Shown here one piece after another: positions 1 to 7,893 of a DNA stretch of 64,000 bases (positions are counted from its first letter, which is position 1; every line of letters starts with the position of its first letter). Under the pieces are notes generated by a model. That model saw only the letters and a program-made list of their open reading frames with translations. It was not told the DNA's origin and did not search any database. The position numbers were made by a program, and so were the translations under genes. The DNA comes from Streptococcus sanguinis (GTDB lineage: Bacteria; Bacillota; Bacilli; Lactobacillales; Streptococcaceae): contig CP040556.1 of assembly GCA_013378335.1 (NCBI GenBank), positions 1,922,001-1,986,000 on the forward strand. The letters are read 5' to 3'.

Positions 1-608
1 GATTTGACCTGATTTCCACTGGAAAAATGACGGATGGGAAGCTGACCTTGCAAGACCAACACCTGCAAAGACTGACAGAAGCAGCTAGCTACTTCGCCTA
101 TCCTTTTGAGCAAGACAAACTGAAGCAAGAGCTAGAAGAAACCTGCGCTCAGCTGGATAAAGGGCAGGATTACAGGCTGCGTATAGCTCTTAAAAAAGAC
201 GGCAGTATTGAGCTAGAAACTGCTCCTCTACTGCCACTGACGGAGACTTTCAGAAAGGCAAAACTGGTTGAGCAAACAGCCAATCTAGCCCAGCCTTTTA
301 CCTATTTCAAGACCAGCCATCGGCCTCATCTGACCTTGGAGCAGCAAGAACAGATTTACTACAATACTCAAGGCCAACTGCTGGAAACCTCTATCGGAAA
401 TCTACTGCTGGAGCTAGACGGCAAGCTCTACACGCCTCCAGCTGAACTAGGCCTGCTCAAGGGCACCTATCGCCAGCAGCTACTGGATAAGGGGCAAGCT
501 ACTGAAAAAGTTTTAACGCTGGCTGATCTGGCTCAAGCGGAGAAAATCTATGCCTGCAATGCAGTCAGGGGGGTATACGAGCTAGAGATTGATAAAGGAG
601 AACTCTGA
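1..608 (+). CDS. pabB: PabB/PabC-type fusion, C-terminal aminodeoxychorismate lyase domain (5' truncated by window)
   Basis: The reading frame is open from the first bases of the window, so the start lies upstream. The visible part matches a class IV aminotransferase (PabC-like 4-amino-4-deoxychorismate lyase) domain: an FDLI segment at the window edge, a YFKTSHR segment containing the probable PLP lysine, ETSIGNLLLE, the LLKGTYRQ loop and the CNAVRG motif near the C-terminus. In streptococci this domain is often fused behind the chorismate-binding PabB domain, which would lie to the left; the fusion is inferred from family knowledge. Its role would be releasing p-aminobenzoate and pyruvate in folate synthesis. 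An internal ATG at 27 is too far into the domain to be the natural start. The next gene starts one base after the stop. Confidence 0.8.
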   Translation, partial: FDLISTGKMTDGKLTLQDQHLQRLTEAASYFAYPFEQDKLKQELEETCAQLDKGQDYRLRIALKKDGSIELETAPLLPLTETFRKAKLVEQTANLAQPFTYFKTSHRPHLTLEQQEQIYYNTQGQLLETSIGNLLLELDGKLYTPPAELGLLKGTYRQQLLDKGQATEKVLTLADLAQAEKIYACNAVRGVYELEIDKGEL

Positions 609-609
609 T

Positions 610-1224
610 ATGAAAGTTATCTTTCTGCACGGACTAGGGCAAGATGAGCGTTCTTGGAAGAAAGTTCAAGAAGCTCTAACAGATGTCCCAACGGAGTCGC
701 TGGCTCTTTTTCCAAGGGGAAATGAAAGCTACCAAGAAATTCGACAAGCAACCCTCCAGCACCTTCAGGCCCAAAAACAGCCTTTCATCTTAGTCGGTTT
801 GTCACTCGGTGGCTTGCTGGCACTGGACCTAGCTGACCAGACTCTTCCTCATCTAAAGGGCTTGATTTTATCCGGAACTCAATACAATTTAGCAGATAAT
901 TTTCTCTACAGACTGCAGATTCTCGTCTTTAAACTGATTCCCAAAAGCGTCTTCTCCAAGCAAGGAGCCGATAAGGAACAGATGCTGCGGATTTTGACCG
1001 AGCTACGTAAGGTAAATCTCACTGATAAAATTAAAACAATCAAGCTTCCCAGCCTGCTTGTTTGCGGTAGCAAAGACAAGCCCAATCTAAAAGCTGCCTA
1101 TGAGCTTAACAAGCTGCTGAAAGGTTCTCAGCTTCACATCATAGAAAAGGGCGGCCATACTCTGAATAGCCAAGAGCCAGAAACATTTGCTCAAATAATT
1201 GAGAAACTCCTACATGAATTCTGA
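610..1224 (+). CDS. alpha/beta hydrolase
   Basis: Small alpha/beta-fold hydrolase of about 204 residues. The N-terminal strand leads into an HGLG oxyanion-hole motif, the nucleophile elbow is GLSLGG (Ser), a later GSKDKPN segment can supply the acid, and GGHTL near the C-terminus supplies the catalytic His. No signal peptide is visible, so it should act in the cytoplasm; the substrate is unknown. I chose the ATG at 610 because AAGGAG at 595-600 sits 9 bases upstream, whereas the upstream in-frame start at 589 lies inside the end of the preceding gene. It is almost contiguous with the pab gene and probably co-transcribed. Confidence 0.82.
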   Translation: MKVIFLHGLGQDERSWKKVQEALTDVPTESLALFPRGNESYQEIRQATLQHLQAQKQPFILVGLSLGGLLALDLADQTLPHLKGLILSGTQYNLADNFLYRLQILVFKLIPKSVFSKQGADKEQMLRILTELRKVNLTDKIKTIKLPSLLVCGSKDKPNLKAAYELNKLLKGSQLHIIEKGGHTLNSQEPETFAQIIEKLLHEF

Positions 1225-1250
1225 CTCTTTTATAATGATCAATCAAAAAC

Positions 1251-1304
1251 TTTAGAAATATTTGAGAAATTCTTTAGAAATATTTGAAAGTTTGGCGCTA
1301 TACT
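1251..1304 (+). promoter_or_regulatory. Four phased 11-bp direct repeats plus -10 box upstream of ABC transporter
   Basis: Four tandem 11-bp units run from 1251 to 1294: TTTAGAAATAT, TTGAGAAATTC, TTTAGAAATAT, TTGAAAGTTTG. A TATACT -10 box follows at 1299-1304 with no good -35, as expected of an activator-dependent promoter whose last repeat covers the -35 region. An equivalent array with the same repeat-to--10 distance lies at 4731-4784. By inference it is the binding site of the response regulator encoded at 3969-4649. Confidence 0.7.
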
Positions 1305-1358
1305 AATTAATAAGAAGAGGAGTTTTCTCTCCTAACATCATGAAAAGGAGAATTGATC

Positions 1359-2288
1359 ATGGAAAATGTTTTGGTTTTACAGCAAGTCAGCAAGAAATTT
1401 GGCCGGCAGTACGCTCTGACCGATGTGAGTCTGACGATAAAAAAAGGAGATATTTACGGTTTGATTGGCAAGAACGGGGCCGGAAAGACCACTCTGATCA
1501 AGGTCATCACCCAGCTCTTGGAAGCAAGCAGTGGCAATGTCTCCCTCTTTGGCTCTCAGACCTATCAAGAATGGACGCAGAGCCTCAAACGGGTCGGTTC
1601 GGTCATCGAAACACCGGTCGCTCACAACCACCTGACAGCCTATGAAAATCTCAGCTACTACTGCAAGCTCCGCCATATTCCCCATGCGGACAAGGTCATC
1701 CGTGAAACCTTGGAATACGTGGACTTGACAGATACGGGCAAGAAGAAATTCCGCGACTTCTCCCTCGGGATGAAACAACGGCTGGGTCTGGCTATCGCGC
1801 TTCTTACCAGACCTGACCTGATGATACTGGATGAGCCTATCAACGGACTAGATCCTGTCGGCATCAAGGAATTTCGCCAGCTTGTCCAAAAGCTCAATGA
1901 AGAGCTGGGCATGACCTTTGTTATTTCTAGTCATATCCTATCCGAGCTCTATCTAGTCGCTACGCGCTTTGGTATCATTGACCAAGGTCATATGATCAAG
2001 GAAATCTCCAAGGCTGAATTTGAAGAGCAAAGCGAAGATTATATCGTCTTGAAAACGGATCATTTGGAGGAAGCCAGCCAGCTGCTCCAAGACCAATTAG
2101 GCTACCGCATCAAGGTGGTTAATGCACAAAATGAAATCCATGTCTTTACCCACTCACACAATATCAACCATATCGTAAAAGAGTTAGCCACAGCTGACTT
2201 AGTCATTCAAGAAATCTACTATGCACGGCAAAATCTCGAAAATTTCTTTACAGATTTACTTGATCAAAACCAGGGAGGTCTATCATGA
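1359..2288 (+). CDS. ABC transporter ATP-binding protein (BcrA/antimicrobial-peptide type)
   Basis: About 309 residues. Walker A GKNGAGKTT lies at residues 37-45, the signature FSLGMKQRLGL and Walker B LMILDEPINGLDP follow, and a C-terminal extension of roughly 90 residues is typical of BcrA/NatA-like subunits serving separate ABC-2 permeases. The ATG at 1359 has AAAGGAG at 1344-1350. It overlaps the permease gene by 4 bases, so the two are translationally coupled. Family members commonly confer immunity to or export of peptide antibiotics; that role is inferred here from the adjacent two-component genes. The upstream repeat array suggests induction by that system. Confidence 0.9.
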   Translation: MENVLVLQQVSKKFGRQYALTDVSLTIKKGDIYGLIGKNGAGKTTLIKVITQLLEASSGNVSLFGSQTYQEWTQSLKRVGSVIETPVAHNHLTAYENLSYYCKLRHIPHADKVIRETLEYVDLTDTGKKKFRDFSLGMKQRLGLAIALLTRPDLMILDEPINGLDPVGIKEFRQLVQKLNEELGMTFVISSHILSELYLVATRFGIIDQGHMIKEISKAEFEEQSEDYIVLKTDHLEEASQLLQDQLGYRIKVVNAQNEIHVFTHSHNINHIVKELATADLVIQEIYYARQNLENFFTDLLDQNQGGLS

Positions 2289-3049
2289 TTCAAACCATTC
2301 GCGCTGACTTTTACCGCCTCTTCCACTCCAAGGGCTTTTGGATTACCGAGTTCGTTTTACTAGCCAATATCCTGATTGGCGTCCTCTATAAGGTTACCAG
2401 CAGATTTGGAACATCCATTGAGATAGATGGACAAAACGTCGCTCAGCAAGTACCAGAAAAAATGACGGGTATCAATGCTCTTGCCCATTTCTCTGGAAAT
2501 TCTGACAGTGTTATATTTTTCACTCTCATTGTCGTCTGCCTCTTATTAGGTGTGGACTTGTCCCGTAAGCTTTATAAAAACAGCCTCGCTCATGGTATTT
2601 CACGGACAGAGTTCTTCTTATCTAAAACTTTGGTCTCCTTTGTTGTCGCCATCTTCCAATTCATCCTCTTGCTAGGGCTATCCTTCATCATCGCTAGCGC
2701 TATCAACGGAATTGGAACAGCTCCGGCAGGTTTCTTTGGCCAATTTTTACTAACCATTCTCGTCCAGCTCATTGTGACCATCGCTTGGATTGGTATCGTG
2801 TCCTTCGTCCTTTATATCAGCCATTCTATTGCTGCGGTCTTTATTACCTATTTTGTCGGAAGCGCCCTGCTCGCCTTTCCAGTCTTGCTCTATCCTCATA
2901 TAGAATTGTTCCGCTATTTAACCTTACGATTTGGAATAGAGATGGCTGCGGATCCTGCCGTTGTTTTGCAAGCTAGTTTAGTCGCGATTGGCATAGCAGT
3001 CTTCTTCCTAGGCAACAGCCTCCTCATTTTCAAGAAAAAAGATCTCTAA
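2285..3049 (+). CDS. ABC-2 type transporter permease
   Basis: Hydrophobic protein of 254 residues with about six predicted membrane segments, starting with one near residues 16-34 and ending with a segment before a lysine-rich tail (FKKKDL). A hydrophilic loop follows the first segment. This topology fits permeases paired with BcrA-like ATPases in peptide resistance or export. GGAGG at 2274-2278 precedes the ATG, which overlaps the stop of the ATPase gene. It is the last gene of the two-gene unit, with a strong hairpin terminator just downstream. The substrate is not deducible from sequence. Confidence 0.86.
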   Translation: MIQTIRADFYRLFHSKGFWITEFVLLANILIGVLYKVTSRFGTSIEIDGQNVAQQVPEKMTGINALAHFSGNSDSVIFFTLIVVCLLLGVDLSRKLYKNSLAHGISRTEFFLSKTLVSFVVAIFQFILLLGLSFIIASAINGIGTAPAGFFGQFLLTILVQLIVTIAWIGIVSFVLYISHSIAAVFITYFVGSALLAFPVLLYPHIELFRYLTLRFGIEMAADPAVVLQASLVAIGIAVFFLGNSLLIFKKKDL

Positions 3050-3057
3050 AACCAAAC

Positions 3058-3092
3058 AATCAGCTAATCTTCTGACTAGCTGATTCTTTTTT
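3058..3092 (+). terminator. Rho-independent terminator after ABC permease
   Basis: AATCAGCTA at 3058-3066 pairs with TAGCTGATT at 3077-3085, followed by CTTTTTT. It lies between the convergent permease and kinase genes. Confidence 0.85.
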
Positions 3093-3966
3093 ATAAAGCC
3101 ACAATCAATTCAAACCAATCGTCCTCTGCTTGAATGGTCAAATCACCACCTAAGATTTCGACCAGCTGCTGGGTGATATAAAGGCCCAGTCCAGACGATT
3201 CCTCACTGCTGGAGAGGTTTTCAGAATAAAAACGATTGGTTAGTTTATCCAGATGTAAAATAGGCTTCTGAAGCTTATTTTTGACCTGAAAAATAACCTT
3301 TTGCCCTTCATTTTTCAGACTGATGCTGGCTGTTTCTCGGCCATGTTTGAGGACATTGCTGAGCATGTTCTGGACGATTCGATCAAAGATATCACTGTCC
3401 GTTTCCAGAAGCAGATTTTCAGACAAATCCACATCTAAATCAATCCCTACGCGTTGAAAGGCATCATAGTAGGCAAAGAGTTGCTGGGTGACCAGCTGGG
3501 ATAGATCTACTCGTTGCAACTTCGGTCGAATCGCTCCTTCCATCAAGCGACGGTATTCCATCAGAGCCTCCAAGCGTCTGGATACTATACTTAGATTATC
3601 TGCAATCTTTTGCAGCTGTTGATCCATTTGCTCCTTATCAGCGTCTTTGAGTAGCTGTTGGGTATAGCCACTAGCAATGGTCAGTGGCGTTCGGATATCA
3701 TGGGCAATATTGCTGATGGCCATGTCCAAGGTTTTCTTTTCCTGCTGGGTCACAAAGGACATCTTATCAATTTCCTGAAAAAGCTGCTCCACCTCGTCAG
3801 TCAGAGCCATCAGACTCGGAGATTGATCTCTCAAGGTTAAGCGAACCTGACTTCCTGTACGACGTTTGTCACGGATCTGGCTGGTCAGACTACGAATCGT
3901 CAGATGATAGCGAACCAGCATGATTGACAAGAAGAGTATGAGCACGAAGGCTATAATCAACCACAT
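3091..3966 (-). CDS. Sensor histidine kinase with one membrane segment and no sensor domain
   Basis: About 291 residues. The N-terminus is a single hydrophobic helix (residues 2-18) followed directly by a basic linker, with no extracellular sensor loop. The HisKA H-box IAHDIRTPLT places the phospho-acceptor His at residue 89. The ATPase part shows the N-box QNMLSNVLKHG and the G-box SSGLGLYI. I chose the ATG at 3966 because AAGGAGG lies just upstream; an in-frame extension would overlap the regulator gene. It is transcribed with the response regulator, whose stop is only 2 bases before this start. Signal input is presumably within the membrane or through a partner such as the ABC transporter (inference). 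Confidence 0.9.
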   Translation of the reverse strand: MWLIIAFVLILFLSIMLVRYHLTIRSLTSQIRDKRRTGSQVRLTLRDQSPSLMALTDEVEQLFQEIDKMSFVTQQEKKTLDMAISNIAHDIRTPLTIASGYTQQLLKDADKEQMDQQLQKIADNLSIVSRRLEALMEYRRLMEGAIRPKLQRVDLSQLVTQQLFAYYDAFQRVGIDLDVDLSENLLLETDSDIFDRIVQNMLSNVLKHGRETASISLKNEGQKVIFQVKNKLQKPILHLDKLTNRFYSENLSSSEESSGLGLYITQQLVEILGGDLTIQAEDDWFELIVAL

Positions 3967-3968
3967 AG

Positions 3969-4649
3969 CTAATCCTCCTTGAGACGAACGCCCAGACCCC
4001 AAATGGTCTCGATATAGTCTGTCGAACTATCCAGCTGGGCTAATTTCTTACGAAGATTGCTGAGATGGGCATTGAGCGTATTATCGCCTGGCAGATAGGT
4101 CTCCTCCCAGACCAAATCATACAGCTCCTCCTTGGTAAAAATCTTTTTAGGATGAGCCAGCAAGACCTGGAAGATCTGAAATTCCTTTTTCCCCAGCCGC
4201 ATGGACTGATCCCCAGAAGCAATTTCAAAGGTGTCTGGCAGAAGGCGAATGTTTTTGATCAATGTCTCCCCAGCAGGCTTAGACTGGGACTGCTGACTGC
4301 CTCGCAGTTGGACAGTGACACGCGCCACCACTTCGTCTAGATTAAAAGGCTTGACAATGTAATCATTCGCACCGTCCAGCAGATACTGGCTCACGAGACT
4401 CTTTTCGCTCAGAGCTGTCAGCATGACTACCGGCACCTGACTGGTCTTGCGAATTTCCCTCAGCACCTCGTCGCCATTTTTGCCCGGCATCATAATATCC
4501 AGCAGGACTAGATGAATCTCTTCTTCCGCAAAAATCCGCAGTCCCTCGGTCCCAGAATAAGCTGAAAACACGACATGCTCTTTCGTAAAGAGATTTTTTA
4601 AAATTTCATGTATATCATTGTTGTCTTCAATTAGTAAAAGATTGGCCAT
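3969..4649 (-). CDS. OmpR-family response regulator
   Basis: Receiver domain with acidic pair E8-D9, phospho-acceptor D51 in LLDIMMPG, T78 in VMLTAL and K100 in YIVKPF, followed by a C-terminal winged helix (RLGKKEFQIFQVLL, DNTLNAHLSNLRKKL, IETIWGLGVRL). About 226 residues, normal for the family. Three tandem ATGs occur; the third (4649) has the best spacing to the GGAGA Shine-Dalgarno sequence. OmpR proteins often bind phased direct repeats as dimers, which fits the 11-bp repeats found at 1251-1294 and 4731-4774; that pairing is inferred. The gene is transcribed divergently from the micropeptide gene, so the second array may also affect its own expression. Confidence 0.93.
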   Translation of the reverse strand: MANLLLIEDNNDIHEILKNLFTKEHVVFSAYSGTEGLRIFAEEEIHLVLLDIMMPGKNGDEVLREIRKTSQVPVVMLTALSEKSLVSQYLLDGANDYIVKPFNLDEVVARVTVQLRGSQQSQSKPAGETLIKNIRLLPDTFEIASGDQSMRLGKKEFQIFQVLLAHPKKIFTKEELYDLVWEETYLPGDNTLNAHLSNLRKKLAQLDSSTDYIETIWGLGVRLKED

Positions 4650-4730
4650 CATCATTCTCCAATAGCTTGATAAAACTAGTGTAGCAAGGATAAGAGGCTA
4701 AGTCAATAAAAGATGGACCATTCGAAAAAC

Positions 4731-4784
4731 TTTAGAAATATTTTAGAATTACTTGAAGGATATTTGAGAATCGGACTTTAAAAT
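4731..4784 (+). promoter_or_regulatory. Second phased 11-bp repeat array plus -10 box, upstream of micropeptide
   Basis: Four 11-bp units span 4731-4774: TTTAGAAATAT (identical to unit 1 at 1251), TTTAGAATTAC, TTGAAGGATAT, TTGAGAATCGG. The -10 box TAAAAT is at 4779-4784. The offset from array start to -10 is 48 bases, exactly as at 1251-1299. This shared geometry marks both promoters as one regulon and points toward the plus-strand ORF at 4829. Confidence 0.7.
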
Positions 4785-4828
4785 AGAAAGAAATAAGAAA
4801 TGTATGTGCAATAAAAAGGAGGCTCAAT

Positions 4829-4888
4829 ATGTTTAAAATTTTTTGCAAAATCGTTTTTAAAAGTATTACTTTCGCACTTGAGGGCTAA
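4829..4888 (+). CDS. 19-residue hydrophobic cationic micropeptide
   Basis: The ORF encodes MFKIFCKIVFKSITFALEG. A near-perfect AAGGAGG at 4816-4822 sits 6 bases before the ATG, a promoter with the phased repeat operator lies upstream, and a perfect terminator begins right after the stop, so this is a complete single-gene transcription unit. The peptide has lysines at positions 3, 7 and 11 on an otherwise hydrophobic, Phe/Ile-rich sequence with one Cys, compatible with an amphipathic membrane helix. There is no signal peptide cleavage site or double-glycine leader. It could be a signalling peptide, a membrane-active toxin or a small regulator of the kinase; none is proven. I recognise no homologue. 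Confidence 0.6.
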   Translation: MFKIFCKIVFKSITFALEG

Positions 4889-4925
4889 GGAAAAAGGCTG
4901 AGACATTCATATCTCAGCCTTTTTC

Positions 4926-4926
<1 letters not shown>
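4889..4926. terminator. Bidirectional terminator between micropeptide and GH1 gene
   Basis: Perfect 15-bp stem: GGAAAAAGGCTGAGA at 4889-4903 pairs with TCTCAGCCTTTTTCC at 4912-4926. Its A-rich and T-rich flanks allow termination in both directions, and it overlaps the stop codon of the GH1 gene. Confidence 0.88.
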
Positions 4927-6681
<1,755 letters not shown>

Positions 6682-6908
6682 TTAAGTCAAAGCTGTGATA
6701 GCCTTTACTAGGTCAAAAACAATCCCAGGTGCATTCATTGGAAATATCTCTTTCTTTTTTTGAAAAGACCGTAGTAACCCCATAGACTACAGTTGATGGT
6801 TGCGACCAAGGGTTCTTTTTGACCAGCCAGATTGCTCATAATTTGTGGGAAGTAAGACACATACACCATAACAGACATGAAGGTCGCTACCCAACTCAAA
6901 ACTTTCAT
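6682..6908 (-). pseudogene. Broken SemiSWEET (PQ-loop) sugar transporter
   Basis: On the minus strand an ATG at 6908 opens MKVLSWVATFMSVMVYVSYF, continuing into PQIMSNLAGQKEPLVATINC and SLWGYYGLFKK, the hallmark PQ-loop and Asn/Trp segments of streptococcal SemiSWEET proteins. Near 6745 the frame ends in a stop and homology resumes in another frame as NAPGIVFDLVKAITALT before the TAA at 6682. The usual stretch between GQK and PLVA also looks shortened. The intact protein would be about 86 residues with three membrane helices. The IS3 remnant begins about 50 bases upstream of its start. Confidence 0.72.
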
Positions 6909-6956
6909 TTTATTCAGATGTTTTCAAAACCTCTTTCATTATTTTATGCTTTCTAC

Positions 6957-7893
6957 TTTATAATCTCACTGATGAACAACGTGAGCTCATTGCTCTTAGG
7001 AAGCGAAATAAAGAGCTTGAAATGCAATTAGATATCTTAAAGCAAGCGGCAGTGATTATGGCACAAAAAGGGAAGTAATCACTGCTAATAAGGATAAATA
7101 TTGCATTTCAGCCATGTGTCGTTGCTTGAACATCCCTCGTGCTAGCTATTACTACAAAGCCATAGAACCAAAGTCTGAGGCAGAGCTTGAAGAAATGATT
7201 AAAACCATTTTCCGTGAGAGCAAGTCTAGATATGGTGCTAGAAAACTCAAGAAATGTCTGGAAAACGAAGGGATTATCTTGTCTCGTCGGCGGATTCGTC
7301 GCATCATGAAGCGATTGAATCTCGTATCCGTCTACCAGAAGGCTGCCTTCAAATCGAATTCTAAAGGGAAAAATGAAGCACCTATTCCAAACCTATTGGC
7401 TCGACAATTTGACCAAGAAAAGCCACTTGAAGCAATTGTAACAGATTTGACCTACGTCCGTGTTGGAAATCGTTGGGCTTATGTTTGTTTGATCATTGAC
7501 CTCTTCAACCGTGAAATTATTGGTCTGTCAGTTGGGTGGCATAAGACTGCAGAGCTCGTCAAACAAGCCATTCAAAGCATTCCTTACGCGCTTACCAAAG
7601 TCAAGCTGTTCCATTCTGACCGTGGTAAGGAGTTTGATAACCAGCTGATTGATGAGATGCTAGAGGCATTTGGCATCGCTCGGTCTCTAAGTCAAGCAGC
7701 TTGTCCCTATGACAACGCCGTTTCTGAGAGTACTTACCGTGCCTTCAAACTCGAGTTTGTCAACCAAGAAACCTTCCATTCGCTGAAAGAACTAACCCTT
7801 AAAACAAAGGACTACGTTTACTGGTGGAATCATCATCGCATTCACAGCAGTCTTAACTATCAAACCCCAATCGCTAAGCGAATCAGCACTTAA
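6957..7893 (+). mobile_element. IS3-family element, 5' truncated
   Basis: A frame around 6963-7078 encodes LTDEQRELIALRKRNKEL and QLDILKQAAVIMAQKGK, the C-terminal part (leucine zipper) of an IS3 OrfA. The N-terminal helix-turn-helix part is missing and replaced by unrelated sequence next to the SemiSWEET pseudogene. An A5 run at 7065-7069 is placed for the -1 frameshift that joins OrfA to OrfB. The left inverted repeat is therefore lost. Right-end candidates lie shortly after 7893, where AACACTTT and AAAGTGTT form an inverted repeat, but I could not define the exact border. Confidence 0.78.
7114..7893 (+). CDS. IS3-family transposase OrfB
   Basis: About 260 residues from the first ATG; the open frame extends upstream to the frameshift region near 7069, as expected for an OrfAB fusion product. 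It contains the HTH_21 region (SRYGARKLKKCL, RRIRRIMKRL) and a DDE integrase core: Asp in IVTDLTYV, Asp in FHSDRGKEF and Glu in SESTYRAFKLE, ending in the usual WWNHHRIHSSLNYQTP block. The catalytic part appears intact, but with OrfA truncated the element is probably no longer autonomous. Confidence 0.88.
   Translation: MCRCLNIPRASYYYKAIEPKSEAELEEMIKTIFRESKSRYGARKLKKCLENEGIILSRRRIRRIMKRLNLVSVYQKAAFKSNSKGKNEAPIPNLLARQFDQEKPLEAIVTDLTYVRVGNRWAYVCLIIDLFNREIIGLSVGWHKTAELVKQAIQSIPYALTKVKLFHSDRGKEFDNQLIDEMLEAFGIARSLSQAACPYDNAVSESTYRAFKLEFVNQETFHSLKELTLKTKDYVYWWNHHRIHSSLNYQTPIAKRIST

Follow-up and report, generated by a model that had tools for sequence, protein, structure and literature searches.

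What do two similar repeat promoters, placed on either side of a two-component system, control in Streptococcus sanguinis, and which protein reads them? We addressed this question in a stretch of 64,000 nucleotides (hereafter the window; assembly GCA_013378335.1, contig CP040556.1, positions 1,922,001 to 1,986,000), where positions 1251 to 4888 hold an ATP-binding cassette (ABC) transporter, a histidine kinase, an OmpR/PhoB-type response regulator and an open reading frame (ORF) of 19 residues. An earlier sequence-only reading had proposed a self-contained circuit, in which the regulator controls both the transporter and a secreted or membrane peptide. Comparison across genomes led us to a different view: we consider it likely that a larger peptide-defence regulon is controlled from this locus, in which the regulator would act through the arrays and the peptide would act at the membrane of its producer.

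Repeat arrays and the regulator beside them

We found two arrays of four 11-bp direct repeats on the plus strand: array A (1251..1294), which precedes the ABC operon and would serve the regulator as a set of binding sites, and array B (4731..4774), which precedes the micropeptide. Both start 48 bases before a -10 box (TATACT, 1299..1304, plus strand, for the ABC promoter; TAAAAT, 4779..4784, plus strand, for the micropeptide promoter), and the repeats sit where the -35 element would be, upstream of each -10. The arrays, their shared offset and the genes between and beside them were thus all located where the sequence-only reading had put them. It had also called the two promoters identical, but the arrays are only similar (33 of 44 bases match, counted by hand on the units). 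A weak TAGAAA within array A pairs with TATACT, and promoter-like sites are not commoner there than in shuffled sequences. The 30 stretches of 44 bases with the highest 11-bp self-similarity in the window all belong to arrays A and B. A 20-base array pattern with up to 3 mismatches gave five matches in the window, four of them in arrays A and B, against 0.07 expected in shuffles.

We searched 284 Streptococcus genomes with the pattern TTTAGAAAYNYTTKAGAANNNYTTKANNNNNNNTTKA, allowing one mismatch and using the reversed pattern as a control. The array was present in 134 genomes and the reversed control in 0, which, together with the excess in the window, rules out chance arrays. The consensus of 79 distinct arrays was TTTAGAA-N4-TTTAGAA..., and the best -10 match fell at offset 48 in 78 of these 79, a register that emerged separately, since the -10 box is absent from the search pattern; many of the 79 arrays are related, so they do not count as independent cases. 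Array B is kept in four S. sanguinis loci (L033, L034, L035, L072) and in one of S. gordonii (L036), while 22 of the 27 related loci inspected showed an array like A at most 170 bases from the ABC gene, and the other five did not.

The regulator (228 aa; 3969..4655, minus strand) consists of a receiver and a C-terminal winged-helix domain (Response_reg, PF00072, and Trans_reg_C, PF00486, both above cut-off); among NCBIfam models it scored highest with VanR, MtrA and PhoB, below the cut-offs of all three. An orthologue (E<=1e-60) was detected in 135 of the 284 genomes. Array and regulator occurred together in 130 genomes, the array without the regulator in 4, the regulator without the array in 5, and neither in 145. 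Positions were compared in 92 genomes, taking one or two arrays per multi-array genome among the arrays listed, which run as far as G192: array and regulator were no more than 4 kb apart in 88 genomes and on separate contigs in 4, and in none did they lie farther apart on the same contig. All 15 aligned regulators have the motif DNxLNxxLSNLRxK in the DNA-binding domain. This association makes it very probable that the arrays are read by the neighbouring OmpR/PhoB-type regulator, which would consequently control both transporter and micropeptide; on this point the sequence-only reading gained support of a comparative kind, from co-occurrence and proximity.

Genes behind the arrays and the make-up of the locus

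The search for the array upstream of other genes, which had been suggested as a check, did yield further array-driven genes in the same genome and in others. Both window arrays are real, but the genome has three, the third being located about 134 kb away, before the gene for a CPBP (Rce1-like) membrane protease; a scan of the genome at up to 3 mismatches gave four places, one of which was an 11-bp-shifted overlap of array B. Because more array-driven genes lie outside the locus, the circuit is not self-contained, contrary to what had been proposed. Each of the genomes G185-G194, part of which we call S. sanguinis-like from similarity, carries 6 to 8 arrays; 3 are present in G195, which lacks the regulator. 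Reading the genes at eight loci and at single sites, we found arrays before three ABC operons and, in two loci, before a shortened ABC copy. Others stand before the micropeptide, a second hydrolase locus and genes for a CPBP protease and an M13 peptidase. The Pfam types represented were ABC_tran, Rce1-like, Peptidase_M13 and Beta-lactamase (PF00144), mostly with one example per kind.

The hydrolase has a beta-lactamase fold (PF00144, E 2.8e-55), S-x-x-K and Y-x-N could be seen in the translations, and its closest solved relative is the alkaline D-peptidase 4y7p (E 6.4e-21). Hydrolase matches were present in 13 of the 13 genomes searched, at 1 to 16 per genome, some of them partial, and at least two were found in 11 of the 13. 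The genome of the window has two such matches at 1571-1575 kb, with no array at that place. Given these families (ABC-2 transporters, CPBP protease, D-peptidase-like hydrolases and M13 peptidase), the array-driven set looks like a peptide-defence regulon. Two side observations concern the hydrolases: they are much expanded in G186 and other S. sanguinis-like genomes (up to 16 matches per genome, several in tandem), and at the second hydrolase locus the first copy after the array was frame-broken near its start in all three cases (L152, L154, L155), with longer open copies downstream.

The transporter of the locus comprises an ATPase (1359..2288, plus strand; PF00005, E 3.8e-32) and an adjoining permease of 254 aa (2285..3049, plus strand), which has several hydrophobic segments by hydropathy and no match in Pfam or NCBIfam. 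The ATPase matches the lantibiotic-protection model TIGR03740 (E 1e-71), yet stays under its cut-off (241.2 vs 309.75 bits). We compared 45 streptococcal loci (L031-L072, L075-L077) of 80, the other 35 being left out, and counted by hand that ATPase and permease adjoin the kinase in 37; the other 8 include some contig ends, and in S. sanguinis ABC operons lie farther away. The kinase (291 aa; 3091..3966, minus strand) has HisKA and HATPase_c domains and one N-terminal membrane segment; its hydropathy profile shows a single hydrophobic region (residues 1-25) and no extracellular domain, and the same was seen in all three kinase relatives inspected. As the kinase crosses the membrane once and has no domain outside, its signal is probably supplied by a membrane partner. 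The regulator and kinase genes have a divergent promoter-like site of their own without an array (4678..4706, minus strand; TTGACT-17-TACACT), which is a consensus match only, such sites being found 6 times in the stretch vs 6.2 expected from shuffles.

The locus is a mosaic. In windows of 300 bases, positions 1 to about 1700 are up to 99% identical to S. sanguinis-like loci, and those from about 4700 on up to 97%. In between, at about 1800-4600, identity is 92-98% with Streptococcus sp. Marseille-P6264 (L031), against 70-81%, where alignable, with S. sanguinis-like loci. The switch falls inside the ATPase, which is hence chimeric, with an S. sanguinis-like N-terminal part and a C-terminal part from another lineage. 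By their identity profile, the permease, the kinase, the regulator and half of the ATPase look recombined in from another lineage. Both arrays fall in the S. sanguinis-like flanks; in L031 itself, an array precedes the ABC gene, and neither array nor peptide precedes the regulator. If the locus works, an imported regulator would read resident operators, which would fit the shared DNA-binding motif.

We also considered anti-phage defence and rejected it, as what the ABC ATPase matched in PADLOC seems to reflect general ATPase similarity; the permease, the kinase, the regulator and one S. sanguinis hydrolase had no PADLOC match at E<=0.001. Farther along the window, positions 7114-7893 hold a 259-aa ORF that resembles an IS3-type transposase, a name given from reading the translation.

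The 19-residue peptide and competing explanations

The micropeptide gene (4829..4888, plus strand; MFKIFCKIVFKSITFALEG) has the ribosome-binding site AAGGAGG (4816..4822, plus strand) and is directly followed on its 3' side by a stem-loop (4889..4926), which is probably a terminator shared with the convergent glucosidase gene. The fold of 4786-4926 reached z -5.4, mostly from this terminator-like stem. The peptide was detected at E<0.01 in 12 of the 284 genomes, namely its own, G185-G194 and G046 (S. gordonii). The search returned 24 places, 13 of them at E<0.01, which correspond to the 12 genomes plus a second copy in G193 (MLKILCKIVFRSLAFAIND) that has its own array and is followed by a hydrolase gene. 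Five of the 11 weaker matches were inspected (L174-L178): none had an array directly upstream, and three (L174, L175, L177) seem to lie within or antisense to another gene. The three valid pairwise comparisons gave ratios of nonsynonymous to synonymous substitution (dN/dS) of about 0.12, 0.21 and 0.15, which are rough because there are only 19 codons and dS is above 1. Common to the three peptide kinds are K/R at positions 3, 7 and 11, C at 6, F at 10, S at 12 and F-A at 15-16. This constraint makes it very probable that the micropeptide gene is genuine. It is followed by a hydrolase gene in 6 of the 12 loci; in 2 there is a truncated start resembling the hydrolase, with a CPBP gene after it, and in 4, the window included, no such gene follows; thus, the peptide is tied to the hydrolase often, but not always.

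As to its role, we think first of a modulator that stays in the cell and associates with the membrane; a leader of the hydrolase gene comes next, and a secreted signal or toxin is least likely. The last of these is close to what the sequence-only reading had proposed, namely a signal, cargo or toxin that the ABC transporter exports or protects against. The peptide is indeed short and cationic, starts with formyl-methionine and stands behind a promoter of the same kind as that of the ABC genes, and the ATPase matches the model of the phenol-soluble-modulin exporter PmtC (E 5.6e-44), although this match falls far short of the cut-off and is one of many to generic ABC models. However, no leader, signal sequence or double-glycine motif could be seen on inspection of the 19 residues. 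A peptide match at E<0.01 was lacking in 118 of the 130 genomes that have both regulator and array, and in S. sanguinis the regulon extends to three ABC operons and several further genes. Nor does synteny speak for a dedicated pair, as the peptide occurs in 5 of the 45 loci compared, against the 37 with ATPase and permease beside the kinase. A peptide present in just 12 of 284 genomes, among array-driven genes that otherwise look like peptide-defence functions, makes a dedicated pair for signalling, cargo or immunity unlikely, and we regard secretion as improbable. The hydrolase arrangement would suit a cis-acting leader, whose translation or ribosome stalling would control the downstream hydrolase gene: the micropeptide is the first ORF before the hydrolase in 6 of the 12 loci and for the G193 paralogue, and mostly the ribosome-binding site of the hydrolase comes directly after the peptide stop codon. 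Against this, the hydrolase is not next in 4 of the 12 loci, including that of S. gordonii (a loss that may be recent), and the spacing of charged residues is preserved among diverged copies; we hold a leader to be a tentative possibility. We see a somewhat smaller chance that the sensor-less kinase has in the micropeptide its own membrane partner or feedback regulator, in which case the cationic helix of the peptide would tune the kinase or the transporter.

Two further explanations concern the transcript and the reader of the arrays. The transcript 4786-4926 might act as a small RNA in which the ORF is incidental, as its strong 3' stem-loop (z -5.4, mostly from the terminator-like stem) and two further array sites without a conserved ORF behind them would allow. 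Yet the ORF has a good ribosome-binding site, and its frame and residue chemistry are preserved in three diverged copies; Rfam gave 0 matches within positions 1-7000 of the window. We hold a small RNA to be very improbable. Even less credence is due to the view that the arrays are sites of CiaR, read by this general streptococcal regulator rather than by the neighbouring one. CiaR is described as highly conserved among streptococci and binds TTTAAG-N5-TTTAAG, so that the two systems have in common TTTA-rich promoter repeats with an 11-bp spacing and a similar core (PMC8317062). The arrays, however, have the core TTTAGAA, did not show the TTTAAG-N5-TTTAAG site, are missing at one mismatch from 150 of the 284 genomes (where CiaR itself was not searched) and track the neighbouring regulator. 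Compared with the CiaR regulon (PMC8317062), unit number, gene set and genome distribution differ as well.

Proposed mechanism and its relation to known systems

The arrays, their link to the regulator, the -10 register, the set of genes and the coding constraint on the peptide can be read from the sequences; binding, induction, the inducing compound and the action of the peptide are what we infer for the peptide-defence regulon. The kinase would sense stress via a membrane partner, likeliest the adjacent ABC transporter, and would phosphorylate the OmpR/PhoB-type regulator. Two regulator dimers would then bind head to tail over the four 11-bp repeats, and the bound regulator, in the -35 position at a fixed distance from the -10 box, would recruit RNA polymerase; PhoB recruits polymerase in a comparable way. 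The induced transporters, membrane-bound D-peptidase-like hydrolases, CPBP protease and M13 peptidase would rid the cell of membrane-active peptides by export or breakdown. The cationic 19-residue peptide would also be driven by one array in S. sanguinis and S. gordonii, as the first cistron before the hydrolase in half of the loci, and the peptide would act at the membrane of its producer, tuning the kinase, the transporter or the hydrolase, rather than as a secreted signal.

Several points weigh against this account. The genomes searched are akin to each other, so presence in one is not independent of presence in another. An array occurs without an intact regulator in four genomes (G018, G107, G195, G198): in G107 the regulator is split into two fragments (65 and 66% identical), and the other three have nothing beyond regulator paralogues of 32-35% identity, though the array of G198 lies at a contig end, so that its regulator may be absent from the assembly. 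Five genomes have the regulator (52-69% identical) and no array at one mismatch; each of them has, at 2-3 mismatches, a site resembling the array no more than 4 kb from the regulator, and three of the five also give one reversed-control match at the looseness of 3 mismatches. Amphipathicity was clearly beyond shuffles in one of the three peptides (46, 180 and 661 of 5000 shuffles were as high). Two array sites (L118, L158) precede no conserved ORF. Finally, the role in peptide defence is deduced from protein families, and the ATPase is under the lantibiotic-protection cut-off. Two of these cases deserve mention on their own account: the arrays of G195 (L195) and G018 (L117), which lack an orthologous regulator, are natural tests of whether such arrays are still working or decaying, and those of L118 (1501 onward) and L158 (1627, minus strand) lie, in two lineages, near a gene that reads like a glutathione reductase, possibly as an RNA or a relic.

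The locus resembles several known systems in part. PhoB/OmpR-type regulators act on pho-box-like direct repeats near the -10 box. Likewise, the 11-bp direct repeats described here end just before the -10 and replace the -35; unlike pho boxes, they come in four units rather than two, have another core and show no phosphate genes among the targets seen. Bce-type systems have a large FtsX-type permease with an extracellular domain and an intramembrane-sensing kinase with two membrane helices, whereas the permease of the window has 254 aa, no Pfam match and no FtsX-type character, and its kinase has one membrane segment instead of two helices. The likeness to a Bce-type detoxification module, which combines a two-component system with a sensing ABC transporter (PMC7438565), is that a two-component system adjoins a peptide-related ABC transporter, its probable target. 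With LanFEG/BcrAB-type transporters, the locus shares an ATPase close to TIGR03740 and a small ABC-2-like permease, but the ATPase score is below the cut-off of that model. BogQ and TriF are described as D-stereospecific resistance peptidases (PMC8127968). The array-driven hydrolases, with their beta-lactamase fold (PF00144) and S-x-x-K, are likened to them by family and nearest structure only, and the window site lacks a hydrolase copy of its own.

In the open-licence literature we found no description of the regulon, the array or the peptide, and no paper with the letters of array or peptide. The circuit is of a known kind, unusually well marked, with the addition of a new small gene, whose 19 residues are of a size that gene finders usually miss. 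If the peptide is indeed a membrane partner or feedback regulator of the kinase, it would be a regulator-induced small-protein switch of peptide-defence signalling, co-induced with D-peptidase-like enzymes, of which no description was found. Of the 284 Streptococcus genomes searched, about half (134) contain the operator, with a nearly invariant -10 register and almost always with the regulator; the array pattern predicts the regulon directly in streptococcal genomes and offers a ready reporter for the inducing peptide. The regulon in S. sanguinis-like genomes joins transporters to D-peptidase-like hydrolases, a link of relevance to competition in dental plaque and to the tolerance of host peptides.

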